Below are positions 2,519 through 55,231 of a stretch of 64,000 nt of DNA, piece by piece. The translations under genes were made by a program, and so were the position numbers. Within the stretch, counting starts at the first letter, position 1; each line of letters begins with the position of its first letter. The notes beneath the pieces are model-generated. The model was not told the DNA's origin. It saw only the letters and a program-made list of their open reading frames with translations, and searched no databases. The stretch is from Aurelia coerulea (Eukaryota > Cnidaria > Scyphozoa > Semaeostomeae > Ulmaridae): positions 8,036,501 to 8,100,500 of the forward strand of contig CM076958.1 of the NCBI GenBank assembly GCA_039566865.1. Reading direction: 5' to 3'.

Positions 2519-3347
2519 TTCATTTTCATTTCCTTTCATTCATTTCATTTTTAATTATTTATACACGGTGGCCCCATCAATCAACGACTGCTTTACAGGG
2601 GGCCGTGTTAAAAAGCTTACAAAATTAACAATACTTTTCTAAAATAACCTAATTACAAGTGATAAAATCTAAAAAATCTAACTAGAATACTTATGATAAA
2701 AAATTAAAAAGAGTAAAATCAAAACTGGTGAATGGAGCGAAAAATCACAATCAAACGTTCAAGCAGAAGGCTGCAGATGGTTTTTTAGTTGGCATTTAGA
2801 CGAATTAAGCGAATTTGCTTGTTTTATATCCAACGGAAGCTGATTCCAAGTTTTAGCGCCACGAAAAGATATCGCTTTTTGTCCTTTGCAGGTTGTCATC
2901 CTTGGGATATAGAGATCAGTGGCTGCATTTCGCAAGCTAATATCAATATTTCGGTCAGAATGTTTTGTGAACAAATCAGAAAGATAGCTAGGTGCAAGGC
3001 CAGTTATTGCTTTATACGTAACCGTAGCTGTTTCACTTTTAATCATATCACTGACAGTAAGCCATTTAAGGTTCTTAATCAAAAGGGTCGCAGATGTATC
3101 ATAACTGCTATTTGAGACAATCCTTGCAGCTCGATTTTGCAATTTTTGCAGAGCTTGCAATCTAGCTTCGCCACAGCTTCCCCATACAGAGCAACAGTAG
3201 CAAAAGTGTGGCTCGACAATGCCTCTGTACATTTGTACCAGAGTAGGTTTCGGTACGAATTTCTTAGCATACTTGAGAAAACCTAAAGCACGAGATACTT
3301 TGCCACATAAGACTTTCATGTGCTGATTCCAGTCAAGATTACTGTCA
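2519..3347 (-). pseudogene. 5'-truncated LINE, RT C-terminal part (LINE B family)
   Basis: The minus-strand frame (2759-3345) encodes the C-terminal RT-associated region: a DSNLDWNQHMK start, IVEPHFCYCCSVWG, KLQNRAARIV and a final SFRGAKTWNQLP. It is close to residues about 280-470 of the LINE B ORF at 13687-15225. The first 13 residues of the open frame belong to the flanking fold-back element. The 3' UTR carries the hairpin at 2563-2608 and ends in T/A-rich 'tttcattt' repeats. RT catalytic motifs are absent, so it cannot move itself. Confidence 0.85.
2563..2608 (-). other. LINE 3' UTR hairpin (variant 1)
   Basis: On the minus strand the outer helix ACACGG/CCGTGT (6 bp), a 1-by-3 internal loop and an inner CCCC/GGGG helix form a long stem. 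The copies at 15243-15286 and 10798-10839 keep the same architecture with a different outer helix, suggesting selected RNA structure, perhaps an RT recognition element. Confidence 0.6.
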
Positions 3348-3847
3348 ACTTTCGAGTATGCATAGGGTTTACTCGAAAACGCGGACATCTCGGAAATCTC
3401 GGATATCTCGGAATGAGATGTAAATGGATAAGTTAAAGTCGAATTTGAGCGTAAGTTTGATGCATTTCATCGCTTTACTAGCAAAGCACAATGTTACGAC
3501 CGTACTTGTCCTATTTTCCAGACAAATTACTGTGAACAGAAGGGCAGAAGGGTAGAACAGAAGGATAAGATTGATGTGCATCAACTGTACGTTTTCGTTG
3601 ATTGTGTATTAAAGTAATGCATGCAATAGGTCAGGCAAAACGCTATCCAAACAACAAATGCCAAGCAATCATTGTCACGGCATTCAATGACGCCATTACT
3701 GTACATTTTTAACATTTCCGTGTTTTCGAGTATGGCTTATGTCTACTCGAAAACACAGAACTCTCGGAAATCACGGAAACCTCGGAACAGGTCTGTTCCG
3801 AGAGATCCGAGAGTTCTGAGAGTTCCGTGTTTTCGTCCTGGCCGTAG

Positions 3848-4200
3848 TTTTCTGGTGGATTTTCATTCATTTTACGCGCTAGTTCTTCTCGGAAGCAAGT
3901 TTCAGAGATATTTCGGTAACAACGAAAGCTAACAACTTTTGGCGGTAATCTGTCATAAGTAGTTCTGAGGATGGTATACACCATATGATGGAAGTCACTG
4001 AAACCTGTCTCAAACGTGTTGCTGCAGAAGCAACTATTCTTGCTATTTGTCATTATCAAATCGATGCATCTGCCATTTGCAGATTTAAAGCAAGTTGGAC
4101 TGTGAATAAGGTTGACCAGCCTGTTGTCTTCCATAATAGAACGTACACCAGCCTCATTTTCATCCATGTTAAAATCACCAAGCATTAGTATGGACACAGT
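3848..4200 (-). pseudogene. LINE endonuclease fragment
   Basis: The minus strand encodes the C-terminal half of an AP-type (EEP) endonuclease. LMLGDFNMD supplies the D/N pair, IDLIMTN follows, and SDFHHMVY is the degenerate SDH block. About 115 residues remain. It is cut on the 3' side by the fold-back element and lies head to head with the LINE A endonuclease fragment at about 4195. No RT is attached. Confidence 0.75.
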
Positions 4201-4742: not shown

Positions 4743-6884
4743 TCATAAAAAGGAAAATTGCTTGTTAAGTCCTTTCGGAACACGTGTGTCCAGTTTAAAA
4801 ATTATTCTTTTCTCGAGTGTCTTTCTTTTTCGCGAGTCTATGGGGGCATCCAACAGTCCAAGAATGTTCATATCATGAATGGAATGTCCTGCCGAATTGA
4901 AATGTTGCGAGACGTTAATGCCGCCTCGGTCCTTCTTTCTTTCATCCTCGTGAAGCTCGTGCTCAACGTTCCTCATGTGCTCTCCAAATCTTTCATTTAA
5001 TTGTCGGCAGGTTTCCCCAATATATAGGATTTCACACTTGCTGCATTTAATGGCATAGATTAGGCATGTGGAAGAACAAGTAAAGCGTTTGTGGACAGTG
5101 AAAGAGTTACCAAGATTTTGAATTACAGTGGTTTGAAAAACATGGTTGCAGGTACGGCATCGTGGATGTCTACAAGGGTAGGTACCAGGGTTTTCTTCTT
5201 TTTTCTTTAATTTTGAACGAACCAAAATGTCTCTTAAGTTTGAATCACGGCGAAATGCCATCAATGGTGGTTTTGCAAAAATGGCCTTTGTGTCCTTGCT
5301 CGTCTGCAGGATGTCAAAATTCATGTAAATGATCCTCTTGATAGGCATTGATAGAGGGTGATAGGTAAGAGTTAGTGGGATCCTGTCTTCGCTGGTTTCG
5401 TTACGTTTGACTCGTAGGGCTTGCTGCCGTGAAATTCTTGATATGCGTTCAAGTGCGTTGTCAATTACATTTTTCGGATAACCACTTTCCAGGAAGAATT
5501 TGCATATTTCTTTCGCTTTATCTGCAAAGTCTGGCTTGTTGGAGCAAAGTCTCTTGAGGCGTAGTAGTTGTGAGAAAGGAATTGAGTTTTTACATTTGAC
5601 AGGATGTGAGGATGAATATGAGAGATAACGATGAGCGTCAGTCTCTTTATAGTTGACAGATGTGGAGATGATATTGTGTTTGATTGATAGTGTGATGTCG
5701 AGGAATGGTATGGATGTTTGCGTGATCTCTACTGTGAATTTGAGAGCTGGATGGAAATTGGATACGAAATCAATGAAAGCTTCAAGTTGTTCACGTGGAA
5801 GGGAAGTGGCGCCAATGATGTCATCTATGTACCGTTTAATGAGGTGAGGAAATGGACCTTGGTATTGTTGTGAAATGAGGTGTTCTTGGTATCCAACAAA
5901 CAAACAGGCATAGCTTGGGCCTAGTTCACTGCCCATGGCTACCCCACCAACCTGTACGTAAAACTGTTGATCGAAAGAAAAGCCATTGGTGGTAAGAATC
6001 AACTCAGCAAGGCGAAGCAAGGTAGATGTAGGAGGATCCTTGGTTGTGCGTTGTTCAAGAAAGTGTTTGAGAGCATGGAGACCATCGACATTCGGAATGA
6101 AAGTGTACAAAGACTTGACATCCATGGTAAAGAGATAGCGATTATCACCAGTGAAACGAAATTGATCAAAGATGCGAAGAGCATCAGATGAATCTTTGAC
6201 AAATGTAGGCAATGAGTGGACGATTGGTGTCAGAATGGCGTCAAGAAATGTAGCGATTTGTGAGGTTGGACATGAAACAGCAGATACGATGGATCTTCCT
6301 GGAATGGATGGCTTATGAATTTTAGGAAGCATGTAAAAGACAGGTGTTCTAGGATGATTAGAGAAGAGTTGACCAGCATTATCGGGTAAATGTTCCTTTC
6401 TAATTTCTTCTTTAACAGCATTGATTATTACTTTATTGAACTCCTTGGTTGGATCTCGTGCCTTTTTTATGTAGAACTCCTCATTATTCTCAAGCTGTGA
6501 TAGACCTTCTTCGACGTAGCGATCCCTATTCCAAACAACAACACGTCCTCCTTTGTCTGCTGGTTTTATAACGATATCCTCGCGAGACTTCAAATTATTC
6601 ATGGCATCAATCTCAGCACCAGTGAGGTTACTTGTTTGGATCCTTTTGCTGTAATTTATCAAAGAGATTTCATGGCGACATTTCTCTATGTAGTAATCTA
6701 AGGAATTGTGCAGACCTTGTGGAGGAGTCCATTTCGATCTTGTTGCAAAAAGGTTGTCAATCAGTGTTTCTGTCGCAGAACGGTCATCATCTGATTGTGA
6801 ATCTTGAATTTTGTTATGGAAAAAAGCCTTGAGACGTAAACGGCGGAAGAATGTCTCTATATCGTGTAGTGTTTGGTAATCTTG
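4743..6884 (-). CDS. Penelope-like reverse transcriptase with GIY-YIG endonuclease
   Basis: About 713 residues belong to the element. RT blocks in order are KADKGGRVVVWNRD, FTMDVKSLYTFIP (motif A), GVAMGSELGPSYACLF (motif B), KRYIDDIIG (motif C, catalytic DD) and IPFLDI. A linker has a Cys pattern (YPCRHPRCRTC). The C-terminal GIY-YIG domain reads LIYAIKCSKCEILYIGETCR with R..EH downstream. PLE proteins copy RNA at nicked chromosomal ends and GIY-YIG supplies the nick; that is family knowledge. No internal stop is seen, but the N-terminus is truncated, so activity is doubtful. Confidence 0.9.
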   Translation of the reverse strand, partial: QDYQTLHDIETFFRRLRLKAFFHNKIQDSQSDDDRSATETLIDNLFATRSKWTPPQGLHNSLDYYIEKCRHEISLINYSKRIQTSNLTGAEIDAMNNLKSREDIVIKPADKGGRVVVWNRDRYVEEGLSQLENNEEFYIKKARDPTKEFNKVIINAVKEEIRKEHLPDNAGQLFSNHPRTPVFYMLPKIHKPSIPGRSIVSAVSCPTSQIATFLDAILTPIVHSLPTFVKDSSDALRIFDQFRFTGDNRYLFTMDVKSLYTFIPNVDGLHALKHFLEQRTTKDPPTSTLLRLAELILTTNGFSFDQQFYVQVGGVAMGSELGPSYACLFVGYQEHLISQQYQGPFPHLIKRYIDDIIGATSLPREQLEAFIDFVSNFHPALKFTVEITQTSIPFLDITLSIKHNIISTSVNYKETDAHRYLSYSSSHPVKCKNSIPFSQLLRLKRLCSNKPDFADKAKEICKFFLESGYPKNVIDNALERISRISRQQALRVKRNETSEDRIPLTLTYHPLSMPIKRIIYMNFDILQTSKDTKAIFAKPPLMAFRRDSNLRDILVRSKLKKKEENPGTYPCRHPRCRTCNHVFQTTVIQNLGNSFTVHKRFTCSSTCLIYAIKCSKCEILYIGETCRQLNERFGEHMRNVEHELHEDERKKDRGGINVSQHFNSAGHSIHDMNILGLLDAPIDSRKRKTLEKRIIFKLDTRVPKGLNKQFSFL

Positions 6885-6896
6885 TATGATAATCTT

Positions 6897-9020
6897 GTCT
6901 GTACTTTTCGAGAAATTGTTGACAAACATGCCCCTCTAAAAACAAAAGTGCAGCGAGGAAACAGTACTCCTTTCATGACTCATGAACTAAAGAAGGGAAT
7001 TTATACCAGAACAAGACTAAAGAAGAAATTCAACAAAAATCCTACGAAAGAAAATGAAAATAATTTCAAAAGACAAAGAAATAAATGCGTTTCCTAGAGA
7101 AAAAAGGCAATCAAACAGCACTTCAAAAAAGCAACAGAAAATGGTCTCGCGTCGAATCGTGCTTTCTGGAATCTTGTTAAACCATTTCTTTCTAACAAAG
7201 GAGGATTGGCCGGTAATGATATTTCCCTTGTTAAAAACAATGAAATTGTCACTGATGACCAAAAACTGACCGAGATCTTTAATGACCACTACATTAATAT
7301 CGTGGAAAAATCTAGTGGTACAAAGCCTTGCAACATAGCTGATACAGCCGCGATCGATGATGATCGGCAACTTATTAGACTGATTCTTGAAAAATACCAA
7401 AATCATCCGAGTGTTTTAGCTATTATTCAAAACCCTGACAACAAGTTTGACTCATTTTCCTTTAACGAAGTGCAAAATTCCGAAGTTAGGAAACAACTAA
7501 GGTCTTTGGACAGTAGAAAATCTACTGGAGAAGATCAAATACCTCCAAAACTTGTTTTATTGGCAGCAGACGAGCTCACAGTTCCTCTTACAGATGCTAT
7601 TAACAGCAGCATACGTAAACATAGGTTTCCAGATAATGGAAAACGAGCCGCAGTATGCCCTTTTGATAAAGGGGAGCCTAATCGTACAGTCGAAAGAAAC
7701 TTTCGTCCAGTCAGTATTTTAAATATCTTTTCCAAAATCTATGAAAAAATTTTGAAAAACCAACTCATCCCATACCTAGATGAGACCCTTTCAATCTTCA
7801 TCGCTGCCTACAGAAAAACATATGGCACGCAACATGTCTTTATAAGAATGATCGAAGAATGGAGAGCTAAACTTGATAATGATAATATTGTAGGGGCCAT
7901 CCTTATGGATCTATCGAAAGCTTTTGATTGTATTCCACACGACCTGCTAATAGCCAAACTACATGCCTATGGCTTAGATGAAAATGCTCTTGTCCTTATC
8001 TACTCTTATCTAAAACGGCGGAAACAGTCTGTGAGAATCAATAATGTGTACAGTTCTTGCCAAACTATTTTATCAGGGGTACCTCAAGGCTCAGTTTTGG
8101 GCCCTATTCTGTTTAATGTTTACATAAACGATCTCTTTTTGTTTATCAAACAAGCAACATTGCATAATTATGCCGACGATAATACTCTGGCTTATTTTTC
8201 CAGGACCCTATCAGATTTGATTTGGGTACTGGAAGAAGAAGCTGGAGTTGCTTTGACTTGGCTGAAACAGAATCAAATGATTGCTAACCCAGAAAAATTC
8301 CATGCACTCCTTATTAGAAAGGATCAAACAAATACCTGCTGAGAGAATATCAACATCCAAGGTAAAATTATCCAGTCGGACGAAACAGTCAAATTGTTAG
8401 GTATTCAGCTAGATTATAAGCTAAATTTTGAACAGCATATCTCTGAACTTTGTTGAAAAGCAGCATCACAACTTAATGTGTTAAAAAGACTCAAACAATT
8501 CATTGGCTTTAATGAAAGGAAAATTCTTATGCAAAGTTTTGTATATTCCAATTTCAACTATTGCCCGCTAGTATGGTACTTCTCATCAGCTAAGTCTTTG
8601 CAAAAAATTGAGAAGATTCAAGAACGTGCTCTTAGATTTTTGTACAATGATCACCGATCTTCTTACAGTGAATTACTCTTGAAATCAGAAAGATGTACTA
8701 TGCATGTTTCCCGTCTGAGAGTTCTCTGTATAGAAGTTTTCAAGACCTTGAAACATCTCAACCCATCTTTCATGCGTGATATTTTCAAAATAAGATCTTC
8801 CAGATATTCATCACGAAATCCGTACGACTTCCAACATTATAGACCAAATCAAGTCACTTTTGGTTCAAACAGTCTTCGATCACTAGGACCTCAAATCTGG
8901 AATGCATTGCCAAATGAAACTAGATCTGCCGACAACTTAAATTCTTTTAAACGCATGATAAAACAATGGAATGGACCAAATTGTAAATGCAATGCTTGTC
9001 AACATTCACCCAAATTTTAG
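6897..9020 (+). pseudogene. LINE A ORF2, reverse transcriptase part (three stop codons)
   Basis: This is one continuous frame from the PLE junction to 9020, broken only by TAG at 7095 and TGA at 8340 and 8454. It shows REIVDKHAPLKTK at the endonuclease-RT linker, ILMDLSKAFDCIPHD (motif A), GVPQGSVLGPILFNVYIND (motif B), NYADDNTL (motif C) and the C-terminal NYCPLVWYFSS / KIQERALRFLYNDH region. Family: APE-type non-LTR retrotransposon, CR1/Jockey-like group by motifs. Both TGA codons could come from CGA by CpG deamination. The 3' UTR runs to about 9258 and ends in 'acaaacaaac'. Confidence 0.88.
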
Positions 9021-27121: not shown

Positions 27122-27168
27122 ATTCTAGTAAACGTTTCGGCGTAAGCCTTCATCAGTAATAGAAGAAT
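27122..27168 (-). ncRNA. hammerhead ribozyme motif
   Basis: The minus strand reads CTGATGA, stem II AGGC-ttac-GCC, GAAACGTT. The flanks ATTCT and AGAAT can pair as stem I with an internal loop. Core bases are intact. It probably marks the 3' end of a PLE remnant that truncates LINE D. No PLE coding sequence was found next to it. Confidence 0.7.
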
Positions 27169-31625: not shown

Positions 31626-31782
31626 TGTATTGTGACACAGAGTCTTCAAGTGAATTCGATATTAATGGAAATTAATGACGTCTTCCACACAAAATTTATA
31701 TATGTTATAGCATTTGGTATTCTTAGGAAAACAAAAGATTTTTGTGGACGATATAGCGAGGCTATTGGCAATACTATGCACC

Positions 31783-32505
31783 CTCCACCGTACTGCATGA
31801 TAGCCCTCCACCGTACTCCATAATAGCCCTCTACCGTACTTGCACCCTCCACCGTACTCCATGATAGCCCCCCACACGCAAAATGATAGCCCTCCACCGT
31901 ACTGCAAGATAGCCCTCCACCGTACTTGCACCCTCCACCGTACTGCATGATAGCCCTCCACCGTACTCCGCACCCTCCACCGTACTCCATGATAGCCCCC
32001 CACCGTACTGCACGATAGCCCTCCACCGTAATGCATGATAGCCCTCCACCGTACTTGCACCCTCCACCGTACTCCATGATAGCCCCCCACACGAAAAATG
32101 ATAGCCCTCCACCGTACTGCATGATAGCCCTCCACCGTACTTGCACCCTCCACCGTACTGCATGATAGCCCTCCACCGTACTCCGCACCCTCCACCGTAC
32201 TCCATGATGGCCCCCCGCCGTACTGCAGATGGCCCTCCACCGTACTCCATGATAGCCCTCCACCGTACTTGCACCCTCCACCGTACTCCATGATAGCCCC
32301 CCACCGTACTTCAGGTAGCCCTCCACCATACTCATGATAGCCCTCCACCATACTCCGCACCCTCCACCGTACTGCATGATAGCCCTCCACCGTACTCCGC
32401 ACCCTCCACCGTACTTCATGATAGCCCCCCACCGTACTCCAAGATAGCCCTCCACCGTACTCGGCACCCTCCACCGTACTCGGCACCCTCCACCGTACTG
32501 CGAAG
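31783..32505. repeat. minisatellite, ccctccaccgtact units
   Basis: About 35 copies of 'ccctccaccgtact' are separated by short variable linkers (gcatgatag, ccatgatag, tgca, ccgca, cggca), giving steps of roughly 23 and 18 bp. Short higher-order blocks recur, for example one ending in 'ccccacacgaaaaatgatag'. On the minus strand all three frames are open for most of the array (YGGGL, TVEGY, VRWR repeats). I regard this as a by-product, not a gene. Confidence 0.85.
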
Positions 32506-32563
32506 ACATTCCCCAGGGTGGTATCTGAAGTGCAAGGAATTTTCAAAGGAACTGTCCTTTATA

Positions 32564-43191: not shown

Positions 43192-43232
43192 TTGACTGAT
43201 GAAGGTCTACGATAGATCGAAAATTTTCAAAC
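43192..43232 (+). ncRNA. hammerhead-like motif, PLE 3 3' end
   Basis: CTGATGA, stem II GGTCT-acgat-AGATC (one G-U pair), then GAAAATTTTC. The core CUGAUGA and GAA are present, and stem III would be an A-U mini-helix. Stem I pairing is weak by eye, so function is uncertain. Confidence 0.5.
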
Positions 43233-43298
43233 AAACTAGTCTTGTTTTCTCTGCGTATTATCGACCTGAAACAAGAATACTCAATCTTACTTGACGCT

Positions 43299-43326
43299 AT
43301 AATAATAATAATAATAATAATAATAA
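43299..43326. repeat. TAA microsatellite 3
   Basis: About nine AAT units directly before the RLE-type LINE. Confidence 0.9.
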
Positions 43327-44554
43327 GGGCAAGCTCACACAAACTACAGACATCACAGTAGACACTAATACCACAATAAAGGAGCTAGAACAGGAAGGTG
43401 CTTACAAATATCTAGGGATCAATGAAGGTGATGGTATACAGCATGCCACCATGAAAGAACAAATTAGAAAAGAATACTACAGGAGAGTGAGACTGGTAAC
43501 AAAAAGTGAACTCAACGGATCAAACAAGATAGAAGCAATCAATACACTTGCTGTACCCGTATTTACTTATAGTGTCAACATTGTAAACTGGCAGATGAGT
43601 GAAATAAGAAAGCTGGATACAAAGACAAGGAAGCTGTTAACTATGGAGAGGATGAACCACCCAAAAGCTGATGTGGAAAGAATGTACCTACCGAGAGAAG
43701 GTGGCGGACGGGGCCTCACTCAGCTCGAACTCGTGTTCAAAACAACCACAGTGGGGCTAAACTCGTACCTGGAACAAACAGAAGATCCCCTTCTCAAACT
43801 TGTGTACCGGCATGAAAACAGCAAGAAGCTTTATTCTGTTGCAAAAGATGCCAGAAAATTTAAAGGAGAGTTAGAAGTACCAGACACTGCTAGAATACAA
43901 CAAGAAAAAATCACTTTATTTGCTAAAAGAGTAAAGCAGGAGACAAAGAAGAAGGCACATGAGAAGATGAGACAGATATGGGAAGGAAAACCGATGCATG
44001 GCCAGTATCCAACTAGAGTGAATAAGCCAGATGTTGAAATAGAACAGACTCACAAATGGCTTAAGAGTCCTGGACTTAAAGGAGAAACTGAGGGATTGAT
44101 AATTGCTGCACAGGATCAAAGCTTAGCAACAAGATCATACCACAATAAGATCATCAAAGACGGCACTGACCCCAAGTGTAGGATGTGCAATGAATTCGAG
44201 GAAACTATTGACCATATTGTAGCCGGCTGTCCAGTACTCGCAAAGACGGAATATATACAGCGACATGACAAGGCAGCAGGATACCTGCATTGGAGAATAT
44301 GCAAAAATTACCATTTCCCAACTGCAGATAAATGGCATGAGCACAAACCTGAGAACGTGACTGAAAATGAAGCTGCCACCGTACTATGGGACATGCCTGT
44401 AAGCACAGACAAAGAGATAAAAGCTAATAGACCTGACATAATTATCAAAGACAAGAAAGAAAAGAAATGCATTATGATTGACATGAGTATACCATCTGAA
44501 AGAAATGTATCGATTAAAGAAGTAGAGAAGCTGTCCAAGTATAAAGATCTTTAA
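43327..44554 (+). pseudogene. RLE-type LINE protein, C-terminal 409 codons
   Basis: The order is ELEQEGAYKYLGINEGDG (end of RT/thumb), IEAINTLAVPVFTYSVNIVNW and MYLPREGGGRGL. The zinc motif CRMCNEFEETIDHIVAGCP (CX2CX8HX4C) follows, then RPDIIIKDKKEKKCIMID, the RPD...D catalytic pattern of PD-(D/E)XK restriction-like endonucleases in R2/R4-type LINEs. TAA at 44552 replaces a probable GAA, since the family phrase continues IEVTKMWEMKTSTVPIVVGALG in the same frame. RT core motifs are absent. Confidence 0.82.
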
Positions 44555-49969: not shown

Positions 49970-51125
49970 CTTATGGTAACTCTGCTTTCCGCTCCAGTGA
50001 ACAGCGAGATGCCGTTTCGCAAAACCACTCTCATCAGACAGCAGTTAATTTTCCCCATATTATTCGGCCTATCGAAAAACGGTAAAAAGGATGTTTTTCA
50101 CTATAGTCTGGGCAATCGAAAGATGCATAAATAGCTATGTTTCTGTTAATTCTGGCTTCGCAAATCCTAGTTCAAATCTTTTTGCTGATTTCAGAACAGT
50201 GGATTTATCTCCTAAACTACTCGAAAAATGTTCGATTTTTTTTCGTTCCATCTTTAGCTAGGTAGTTGGTCTACAATTTTGTAAAGTCTGATTGAAAATG
50301 CTAGGCTATATTTCCTGCAATCGAATTTTATATTTCTGTTTACTTTTCGACATCGAAGGGGAAAAGCGATTGTCAACAGATTAGTATGTAGAATGAGTTG
50401 AAAGCTTTTGCAAAAAGTTTACTTTTAGATCAATGCTCACTGTGGAATCTTAAAGGAATTGATATTTTGTGAATGCTCATGAAAGTCTTGAAAGACACCC
50501 ATTGCATGGTTTTGTGAAGTTGCTGGTAACAGTCAGTAACTTTTAATCAATAGATGCAAATAATACTTTACGAGCGCACTAAGGATATCTATTGAGACTT
50601 GGGTATGGTATTCCCAATAGATGACGTTCATTTGTTTGCCTATGGAAACATTTCTGAAAGTTATTTCAAGCCTGAGCTTTTGCGAGCGTGCTTCATAGCA
50701 TGGTAATCCGTTGACCAAGGTTTCTCCCTTTCGCTGTCGAAAAGTAAACAGAAACATAAAATTCGATTACAGGAAATCTAACCTAGCTTTTTCAATCAGA
50801 CTTCGCAAAGTTGTAGATCAACTACCCAGCTAAAGATGGAGTGAAAAAAATCGAACATTTTCCGAGTAGTTTTGGAGATAAATCCACTTTTCTGAAATCA
50901 ACAAAAATATTTGAACTAGGGTTTGCGAAGCCGACGTTGACGGAAACATTGCGATTTATGCATCGTTCGATTGCCCAGACTATACAGGACAACATCCTTT
51001 TTACCACTTTTCGATAGGCCGAATAATATGGGAGAAATTAGCTGTTTTCTGATGAGATTGGTTTTGCGAAACTGCACAAACAGCGGAAAGCAGAGTTGCT
51101 CGAAGAAGTGAAGCTGTGGTCCTGC
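49970..51125. repeat. large inverted repeat with about 420-bp arms
   Basis: The left arm (about 49970-50400) and right arm (about 50700-51125) match in reverse. Shared blocks: 'atattattcggcctatcgaa', 'gtttacttttcgac', 'cgaattttat' and 'tttcgcaaaacca'. Identity is about 80-85 percent by eye; the centre is about 300 bp. Open frames on the two arms (FGLSKNGKKDV / FGLSKSGKKDV) mirror each other. Probably a fold-back TIR element; ends and target duplication are not defined. Confidence 0.7.
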
Positions 51126-52490: not shown

Positions 52491-53811
52491 ACAGCGAAGA
52501 AATGCAAAACGAAAACGAGGCCGTAATTGCTGACCGGCCGGCTTCAGCTTTCAAATCCGGAAAGGTACGGCCTAAAGCGGACAACTCAACACGCGCTTTG
52601 ATACTGGATGGATGTGCTTCTTTCATGAGATAATGAAAGGCTGGATTGAGTTTTAAAGGACGTCCTGGAGGCCACATGCAAATTTGGTTACTTGTTAATC
52701 CAAACAAAGAAGAAATAACTGCAAAGCAATGAAACTGAAGTGAGCAAAGCACTTTTTCAGGCCTCTCAATGCACTCACTTCGCATTTTTTTCATCGACGA
52801 TAATAATGAAGGAACACGAAACATGTTTATGCGAGCACGTCCGCTTTCCCTCCCTTCAGTTCAGATTCAAAGATATTCTTGCTGCTCTTAATTTTTGCGG
52901 CTGTGGTATGAGTAGAATATGGGTGCTCAAGGCTGGGGAACAAAAAATCAATGCAAAACAATAATCTCCGGCATAAAAATTGACCCACAAAAAAATTTTC
53001 CAAATGACTACTGTAACCCAAAAATAGCCTTTGCCAAAATGTTAGACCCAAAAAGTAACTTGAGTATCCCTATCCTAAATATACCAGAGTAGACCCCCTG
53101 AGGGGCTTAATATACCCCTTAATTCTGGGGACAGGGCAGCCATGCAAAGGGAGGGTGCTCATTCAAGAAAATACAGTCACAGTATCACTTTTTTACACTA
53201 ATAGTTTGTAAATAACAAGCTGCCTTTCTCAAAGAAATACTTCCTTGTCTCTCTACATCTACTTTGATAAATGTTTGTTGGTAATTAAAGCTAATGGGTT
53301 GTGACTTTTACAAAGGGAAAATAGTTGGAGAAAAAAATTTGATGATTTTAGATTGTTTCACTGCTGAAATCTAGAACATCCATTCAAAGGGAAGCTGCAC
53401 ACAATCTTCTCCCAGAATCTATTCTCAAAACAGCAACTCTCATCAGCAATCACAGGCAACAGAATGCAGCAGGTCATTGTTGTTGTCTGTAAATCAAAGA
53501 TACAAACCGCATTGAAGATATACAGTTGAAGATGCAAGTCCCCCAAAATTTTACATGGGGATATCATCGTGCAGCTGGAAATTCTAGTTCTTTCTAAAAA
53601 CTGCTGAGCACTGAAAATGATTTCATGACTGATTTCCAAATCCTGTACCGATATTTCTTTTAAGGGAGGGTGTGCTCAAGAGAGGGATGCAGGATCTTCC
53701 TTTCTCATTTCAAATATGCATTCATGAACAATAATGCAAAATAAAGGAAATTCTATAGGGTATAATATCTGTATGTAAATATATGAAATAGAATTATATA
53801 GTGAACGATGA
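52491..53811. other. no gene recognised
   Basis: Open frames of 119 codons or fewer have no family motif. No element ends recognised. Confidence 0.35.
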
Positions 53812-54068
53812 AGAAGAGGGACAACATCCTCAGAGAGCAGGCATCAAGTTGATCTTTGCGCTTTTTTTTCATTTATTCAGCTATCTGCTAACTAGTTTCG
53901 CCCACTAGGGCATCTTCAGAGCAACTGATTAAGTTAAAGGATCGCCCTCTATTCATAGTAAAATGTATGTCCATAAAAGGTTAATTAATTTACAAGTAAC
54001 ATTTTGTCCTTATAAGGTAAAAATGTCCTTGTCATGTGTTGTTTCTGTTGTTACCCTCGTTCTCGTTG
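53812..54068 (-). mobile_element. inverted, truncated copy of the hammerhead unit
   Basis: The reverse complement contains the end of the internal region (54068-54025, matching 54837-54888) followed by the terminal repeat (54024-53812). It adjoins the direct copy head to head at 54068/54069. An inverted truncated copy at the 5' side is typical of Penelope-type elements. Confidence 0.72.
53885..53928 (-). ncRNA. hammerhead ribozyme, inverted copy
   Basis: The minus strand has CTGAAGA, GCCC-tagt-GGGC and GAAACTAGTT. Core complete; the cleavage triplet is GTT instead of GTC and stem I is shortened to about 3-4 bp, so slower cleavage is expected. Confidence 0.6.
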
Positions 54069-54283
54069 TTATAAGGACAAAATTATTCTTGAAACTAATT
54101 AACCTTATATGGACAGACAATATACTATAAATAGAGGTAGATACTCTGAATAAATCAGTTGCTCTGAAGATGCCCTAGTGGGCGAAACTAGTCAGCACTG
54201 AAATAAAAAATAAGGCGCAAAAGACTAAATTGATGCCTGTTTTCTTCGAATGGTTAGGCCCTCTTCAACGGTACACTTTATAT
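54069..54283 (+). repeat. terminal direct repeat, left (PLE-type pLTR)
   Basis: 215 bp, nearly identical to 54889-55103 (about 97 percent by eye). Starts 'ttataaggacaaaattattc', ends 'caacggtacacttt'. Contains the hammerhead at 54155-54201. Confidence 0.85.
54155..54201 (+). ncRNA. hammerhead ribozyme, left repeat
   Basis: Stem I is TCAGT-t-GCT with AGC-ACTGA (8 bp, one bulge). The core is CTGAAGA; stem II GCCC-tagt-GGGC (4 bp); then GAA; stem III is only AC-ta-GT; the cleavage triplet is GTC. Every invariant base is present (position 7 may be any base). The very short stem III suggests action as a dimer, as proposed for PLE and retrozyme hammerheads. Confidence 0.85.
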
Positions 54284-54309
54284 AATATTTAGTCTGGACG
54301 CAGACGCGA

Positions 54310-54894
54310 ATGGCCCGCTACAAAGACTCAGGAAGCGCTTCAAAAGAATACAACTACAACATCTTCAACAAGTACGACGACAACAATAACAACAACAACT
54401 GCAACTGCAACTCACCGACACCTGACCTTACTACACAGGGAAAACATCTGACTACGAATGACACACTACAAAACGGTACGAAATCAAACAACAACAACAA
54501 CAACAGCAACAACAGCAAGACTACGAAGACACACAACCGACGTCATAGGACAAGATACTTCATAACAACAACACATGAAAGTGAAAACATCGCATTGCGA
54601 ACAACGCCAATGAAAAGAATAGAACAGAACAGAACGAACAGGGTAAAGGTACACCCGAGGTGGGATAAGATTCACGGAATCAGCCACTTGCAAAGAAGCA
54701 CCGACAATAAAATTGAAGAAGCGAAGCTCGTAGAACGATGGATGAAAGACAATCTGACGTCAAGTGACATAGCACAAACATACAACGCCATGATACGAGA
54801 ACCGACCTCTACGACAACAACGACTCAACTGAAAACAACGAGAACGAGGCTAATAACAGCAACAACAAACGACAAGAACATTTTTACCTTATAA
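54310..54894 (+). CDS. 194-aa Asn/Thr-rich protein of unknown function inside the hammerhead unit
   Basis: The frame opens just after the left repeat and its stop falls 3-6 bases into the right repeat, so the ORF fills the internal region almost exactly. The N-terminal part is low-complexity (N-rich runs around residues 25-35 and 60-70). The middle is basic (HNRRHRTRY, RIEQNRTNRVKVHPRWDK). A more complex part follows: NKIEEAKLVERWMKDNLTSSD and IAQTYNAMIRE, probably helical. The end is T-rich. No RT or GIY-YIG motifs. The coding strand is markedly T-poor and A/C-rich. I do not recognise the family. It may be a PLE N-terminal remnant or a real accessory protein. Confidence 0.5.
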   Translation: MARYKDSGSASKEYNYNIFNKYDDNNNNNNCNCNSPTPDLTTQGKHLTTNDTLQNGTKSNNNNNNSNNSKTTKTHNRRHRTRYFITTTHESENIALRTTPMKRIEQNRTNRVKVHPRWDKIHGISHLQRSTDNKIEEAKLVERWMKDNLTSSDIAQTYNAMIREPTSTTTTTQLKTTRTRLITATTNDKNIFTL

Positions 54895-55103
54895 GGACAA
54901 AATTATTCTTGAAACTAATTAACCTTATATGGACAGACAATATACTATAAATAGAGGTAGATACTCTGAATAAATCAGTTGCTCTGAAGATGACCTAGTG
55001 GGCGAAACTAGTCAGCACTGAAATAAAAAATAAAGCGCAAAAGACCAAATTGATGCCTGTTTTCTTCGGATGGTTAGGCCCTCTTCAACGGTACACTTTT
55101 TAT
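54889..55103 (+). repeat. terminal direct repeat, right (PLE-type pLTR)
   Basis: Copy of 54069-54283, offset exactly 820 bp. Differences include 'gatgacc' for 'gatgccc' in ribozyme stem II. Confidence 0.85.
54975..55021 (+). ncRNA. hammerhead ribozyme, right repeat
   Basis: As the left copy, with one C-to-A change in stem II giving an A-G mismatch. The core and stem I are intact, so reduced but possible activity. Confidence 0.78.
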
Positions 55104-55231
55104 GAAATAAAATTATTATTTATTTGCCATCCTCTTCCTCTACTTCTCAAATAAATTTTGTTCAATGCGCAGGAAACAAGAAAAATTTAAGAACAAGTAC
55201 TGCATATAATAGTTGAAGTTTACAGCTGTGC

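Follow-up and report, generated by a model that had tools for sequence, protein, structure and literature searches.

A hammerhead-flanked unit in the genome of the scyphozoan Aurelia coerulea encloses an open reading frame (ORF) of 194 codons, which raises the question of what kind of element this is and whether it encodes a protein. An earlier note on the locus proposed a coding variant of the animal retrozymes or a non-autonomous Penelope-like element (PLE) with a new protein. We present here an analysis of the window (the whole stretch of 64,000 nt in which the unit lies) and of related copies in the genome, which was searched over 574,161,440 bases in 294 contigs. We consider it likely that the unit is a long, non-coding, non-autonomous, retrozyme-like element with a PLE-type pseudo-LTR, probably mobilized by a Penelope-like reverse transcriptase (RT).

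Layout of the insertion and its family

The insertion spans positions 53798 to 55100 and is enclosed by 16-bp target-site duplications with one mismatch (TATGAAATAGAATTAT at 53782 to 53797 on the left and its partner TATGAAATAAAATTAT at 55101 to 55116 on the right). On the forward strand, it contains a pseudo-LTR-like terminal repeat, P, whose first copy (P1) lies at 54069 to 54288 and which is also found in the copies fetched from elsewhere, an A/C-rich internal region, I, with (AAC)n (54289 to 54888), and a second repeat, P2 (54889 to 55100), which runs to the 3′ end of the element, with repeat similarity extending to 55108. The near-identical direct repeats of the earlier note are borne out, with 97% identity over 220 nt (54069 to 54288 and 54889 to 55108) and a start-to-start spacing of exactly 820 bp. 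The inverted, truncated copy that it placed on the 5′ side is present as a 5′-truncated piece on the reverse strand (53798 to 54070), with its 3′ end outward; this piece is not a copy of the window unit, however, as it belongs to a second family, sharing 94.5% identity over 274 nt with the element at locus L063 and 82% with its right-hand neighbor. With two 3′ ends facing outward inside one 16-bp duplication and two family identities, two RNAs from two families seem to have entered a single target site. Head-to-head layouts are also found at loci L030, L042, L050, and L058. At L030, template jumping between P and PLE RNAs was considered and rejected, as (TA)n at both junctions fits a nested insertion equally well. 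Elsewhere in the window, a fold-back of ~1 kb (50010 to 51076) has arms that are 86 to 88% complementary, and overlapping frames of YGGG-rich repeats at 31646 to 32558 on the reverse strand are probably a minisatellite.

P1 contains a hammerhead at 54155 to 54201 (forward strand), identified by descriptor match, fold, and pairing, which reads TCAG-T-TGCT / CTGAAGA / U GCCC-UAGU-GGGC / GAAAC-UA-GUC / AGCA-CTGA. The core elements CTGAAGA, GAAAC, and GTC are present, the predicted cut site is 54193/54194, stem III has only 2 bp, and stem I, previously given as 8 bp long, consists of two blocks of 4 bp each and an extra T. By its predicted pairing, this is a minimal, PLE-like type I form; PLE pseudo-LTRs with a minimal hammerhead were reportedly described by Cervera and de la Pena in 2014. 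The hammerhead of P2 (54975 to 55021, forward strand) carries a C-to-A change at 54993 in stem II, is rejected by the search descriptor, and has a minimum-energy fold without a proper stem II; its core is intact, as the earlier note described for both repeats. An Rfam scan of the window yielded no family at its gathering score, microRNA-type matches being the only ones and all below their gathering scores, and gave no hammerhead family within 53700 to 55200 at an E value of ≤5; the exact hammerhead pattern had no match in viral_contigs. A separate descriptor match at 43196 to 43260 (forward strand), which may be due to chance, lies ~100 nt before an ORF at 43295 to 44554 with a weak zf-RVT match.

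Across the genome, the hammerhead pattern occurs at 800 sites with ≤2 mismatches, compared with 0 for the reversed control, and the search for other copies suggested in the earlier note returned at least 62 matches to the window unit (40 of 1,484 candidates scored); on these counts, a chance repeat or a chance hammerhead can be dismissed. Of 98 copies, 90 keep an intact core and 82 a perfect stem II. Among the 94 parsed copies, most pairs are invariant and a few vary in both directions; covariation thus lends the structure slight support. The pairing table and the hammerhead, promoter, and tail counts omit L001 through L008, which duplicate stretches contained in other loci.

Upstream in P lies TATAAATAG (54126 to 54134, forward strand), which we take to be a putative TATA-box-like motif; its first T is 31 nt before a predicted transcription start, A 54157, in an initiator-like TCAGTT (54155 to 54160, forward strand). 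TATAAATAG is found upstream of 76 of the 98 hammerhead-like copies, and its distance to the A of TCAGTT is 31 nt in 73 of the 75 copies with both motifs and 30 nt in the other 2, a spacing that places the predicted start inside hammerhead stem I. Downstream, an 86-nt tail (54194 to 54279, forward strand) leads from the hammerhead cut to a fixed 3′ end (CACTTT). Among the 70 family-1 copies in which it could be measured, the distance from the cut to the terminal GTACACTT is 85 to 88 nt in 69; the sister families, which are outside this count, have a related yet different end sequence. Judged by these motifs, P combines a minimal hammerhead of the PLE type with a predicted promoter and a tail of 86 nt that has a fixed 3′ end.

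The family, represented by 51 loci (L009 to L059) and the window, has the layout (I-P)n, with an I of ~600 nt, a P of ~220 nt, and unit sizes of 820 to 940 nt. Most copies are shortened at the 5′ side, and on the 3′ side they terminate at about positions 211 to 220 of P. Target-site duplications of at least 12 bp enclose 28 of 42 copies, compared with 48 of 1,722 mismatched flank pairs, and the flanks are often AT-rich; this count excludes L026 and the second copy at L041, which are duplicates, as well as loci with rearrangements or head-to-head copies (L020, L030, L042, L043, L045, L050, L053, L055, and L058). The 5′ ends, tallied in 42 rows that include L026 but not the window, are spread throughout the unit. 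Four of the 42 lie 3 to 8 nt before the cut (p = 0.007, for an interval picked after viewing the data), a cluster that weakly supports cut-derived ends. Three others fall at positions 85 to 91, adjoining the predicted start, and two of these (L025 and L026) count as one insertion because their flanks are identical.

At L012, six internal regions and seven P copies form one insertion of 5,257 nt, enclosed by a 21-bp duplication with one mismatch. Its units are 0 to 6 substitutions apart over 834 to 850 aligned positions, and unit pairs in L009, L011, and L013 are 3 to 6 substitutions apart; the divergence of other elements from L012 reaches about 7%, with L013 and L021 within 0.8%. The simplest reading of these figures is that a single template was copied repeatedly, and a multimeric transcript from a pre-existing array could also have produced the array. 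Tandem units are found in the sister family L060 as well (2143 to 2964 and 3077 to 3895, reverse strand). A 152-bp tandem array (L065, 347 to 1701; 8.9 copies, 98% match) has the same hammerhead and tail. Its units consist of P positions ~89 to 217 and a short linker; position 89 corresponds to 54157, and the units thus span the predicted transcription start to the 3′ end of P.

Relation to Penelope-like elements, LINEs, and retrozymes

Comparison with known elements supports the part of the earlier proposal that concerned a hammerhead-flanked, non-autonomous element with a PLE pseudo-LTR-like terminal repeat. The family shares with PLEs the minimal hammerhead, which occurs in PLEs and Terminons according to the accounts in PMC7229834 and PMC7761336, along with the tandem layout, insertion into AT-rich targets, and head-to-head copies. 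The hammerhead cut of the Anolis PLE is located 26 bp, and its RT start 111 to 118 bp, past the start codon (PMC11167929), which by subtraction gives a cut-to-RT-start distance of 85 to 92 nt; the fixed internal 3′ end found here, at 85 to 88 nt, is comparable. The Anolis protein favors AT-rich DNA and acts on both strands, cutting and extending each; the hammerhead of this PLE is active only with the protein, insertion in vitro does not require it, and RNA-seq shows no ends at the cut (PMC11167929), all of which calls for caution over an essential role of the hammerhead.

The window element differs from PLEs in having no RT or GIY-YIG ORF inside the unit, and several findings count against a retrozyme mobilized by PLEs: no autonomous PLE with the same P was found among the sequences examined, 14 of the 42 copies are without a duplication of at least 12 bp, the 5′ ends do not coincide exactly with the hammerhead cut, and the PLEs of this genome differ in their hammerhead and in having a shorter tail. 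Among 13 repeat copies from these PLEs, 11 carry a TATA-like motif 31 to 32 nt before a start-like A, and the 5 in which the end motif was located have a tail of 65 to 67 nt; the motifs were chosen after inspection. In the window, a 730-codon PLE frame that includes a GIY-YIG domain is located at 4743 to 6935 (reverse strand), with a hammerhead-like sequence containing a changed GAAA ~130 nt downstream, and PLE-type pseudo-LTR hammerheads CTGATGAAGGCTT(A/G)CGCCGAAACG are found at 27156 and 11355 (both reverse strand).

Alternatively, the unit may be a SINE-like element with a hammerhead that was mobilized by LINEs, with PLEs not involved. LINEs too show 5′ truncation, target-site duplications, and inverted 5′ pieces, as seen here, and LINE-type RT fragments are abundant in the window. 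The hammerhead and tandem pseudo-LTR layout, the fixed internal 3′ end without poly(A), and the two-template head-to-head insertions nevertheless fit PLE behavior, and we regard mobilization by LINEs as unlikely. Still less probable is that the unit is the remnant of one internally deleted autonomous PLE, with I as former PLE coding sequence. P does have the build of a PLE pseudo-LTR, and P copies adjoin PLE parts in L030, but a Pfam search of I gave no match, which also speaks against the region being the N-terminus of a PLE RT protein, an outcome that the earlier note had allowed for. In addition, the PLE protein of the window matched only L054 and L030, outside I, among 52 sequences (L009 to L059 and a 5-kb window piece), and the same I recurs at many loci, which argues that it was amplified as such.

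Type I hammerheads in tandem units, low G+C content, target-site duplications, and non-autonomy are features shared with the animal non-LTR retrozymes, as is the lack of a conserved coding region, with the caveat of a rare long open frame here; the 152-bp array with the same hammerhead is a further likeness. As described in PMC7229834, animal retrozymes are RNAs of about 170 to 400 nt, mostly with canonical type I hammerheads, whereas the units here are 820 to 940 nt long and have a minimal hammerhead; that account treats PLEs only as a candidate for their mobilization. No earlier description of a long animal retrozyme with a PLE-like repeat was found in the freely accessible literature. Plant LTR retrozymes, among them NbRZ1 (PMC12029980), resemble the family in their similar size, a hammerhead in the terminal repeats, a promoter upstream of the hammerhead, and a possible ORF. 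As described in PMC7229834 and PMC7761336, they differ in their type III hammerhead (type I here) and 4-bp duplications (at least 12 bp in 28 of 42 copies here), and they have a primer-binding site and a polypurine tract.

The open reading frame

The 194-codon ATG ORF reported between the repeats is present at 54310 to 54894 (forward strand), and the selection tests lead us to judge it non-coding. An unbroken frame is seen in 15 of the 35 internal regions (9 of the 27 loci). Among the other 20, a premature stop or a frameshift interrupts 15, the frame shifts close to the end in 3, 1 runs past the stop, and 1 lacks a start. Only 2 of the 19 fixed differences between subfamilies A and B in the tested part of the ORF are silent, with a neutral expectation of 4.8; neutrality is not rejected (p = 0.11), and omega values of 0.5 (p = 0.005) and 0.3 (p = 0.00015) are. 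The pN/pS ratios, for which 24 of the 35 internal regions were used and 11 with gaps or insertions left out, are as follows, with the ORF frame given first: between A and B, 1.66 compared with 0.60 and 0.47 for the two remaining frames; within A, 0.62 compared with 0.50 and 1.37; and within B, 0.88 compared with 0.83 and 0.40. Differences at codon positions 1, 2, and 3 number 19, 18, and 15 between the window and L060 and 16, 32, and 20 between the window and L063, and between-family indels include lengths of 1 and 4 nt, which are not multiples of three. On the element strand, the longest stop-to-stop frame of L063 is at most 76 amino acids (aa), and the L060 units have stop-to-stop frames of 272 and 273 aa, partly in another frame than the window ORF.

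A coding retrozyme, in which a short, Asn-rich, basic protein, perhaps fast-evolving, helps the element, is therefore highly improbable, although it has points in its favor. Such a frame is rare by composition, with an ATG ORF of at least 190 codons arising in 1 of 2,000 dinucleotide shuffles of I and in 0 of 2,000 order-2 Markov sequences, and frame 0 of I is free of stops, whereas the two remaining forward frames contain 14 and 10. The pN/pS values of 1.66 between and 0.62 and 0.88 within the subfamilies can be read in the same direction, and the plant retrozyme NbRZ1, described as potentially protein-encoding in PMC12029980, offers a precedent. Of 62 candidate predicted proteins, four proved homologous; one of them, P0001 (187 aa, from another record), is 91% identical to the ORF product over its full length, and the other three align in part. 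The partial alignments of P0002 and P0004, however, apparently reflect frame changes, and the flat codon positions and frame-breaking indels across families, the absence of the ORF from L063, its continuation in another frame in L060, and the rejection of omega values of ≤0.5 also argue against a protein. Moreover, length changes of (AAC)n are inherently multiples of three, and the predicted leader contains three upstream ATGs. The long open frame could be a former coding sequence, a chance occurrence among several families, or the product of an unknown constraint. Other copies lack the ORF or show its neutral decay, the outcome that the earlier note named as refuting its proposal, and neither its coding variant nor its new PLE protein is supported. 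The ORF has no selected protein role, and the element is probably non-coding.

A putative cycle and its implications

Transcription would begin at the predicted A 54157 in P and, as this position lies in stem I, the RNA would begin within the hammerhead. The transcript would extend across the internal region and enter the next P, and each hammerhead could cut to give RNAs of ~820 nt, which we infer may be circularized. Reverse transcription, presumably by a PLE enzyme, would start at a fixed internal place 86 nt past the cut, away from the RNA 3′ end, with priming at AT-rich nicked DNA; the fixed 3′ ends and the duplications of the copies are consistent with this step. It would then halt at variable 5′ points or continue for several rounds, possibly on a circular template, to yield tandem units such as those of the observed arrays. 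The arrangement and duplications of the window copy suggest that both target strands prime, so that two RNAs, even from different families, could come to lie head to head at one site.

A broader proposal, which we offer tentatively and with some doubt, is that P, with its start site in the hammerhead, the hammerhead itself, and the ~86-nt tail, suffices on its own as a mobility cassette that a PLE enzyme reads. Whatever lies between two P copies would be cut out as an RNA, perhaps as a circle, and this RNA would be copied from the tail site and rolled into arrays, and a second RNA would pair with it head to head, since both DNA strands prime. If this is true, one cassette makes both the 152-nt and the 820- to 940-nt elements, and PLE proteins mobilize foreign retrozyme RNA in trans.

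For the long, non-coding, retrozyme-like element favored here, the supposed new protein is removed. Its DNA copies would record the RT start relative to the ribozyme cut, with a spacing that agrees with that of the sole PLE studied in vitro, and the window copy appears to record a single insertion from two different RNAs. These two records make the idea that PLE proteins act in trans on such RNAs directly testable.
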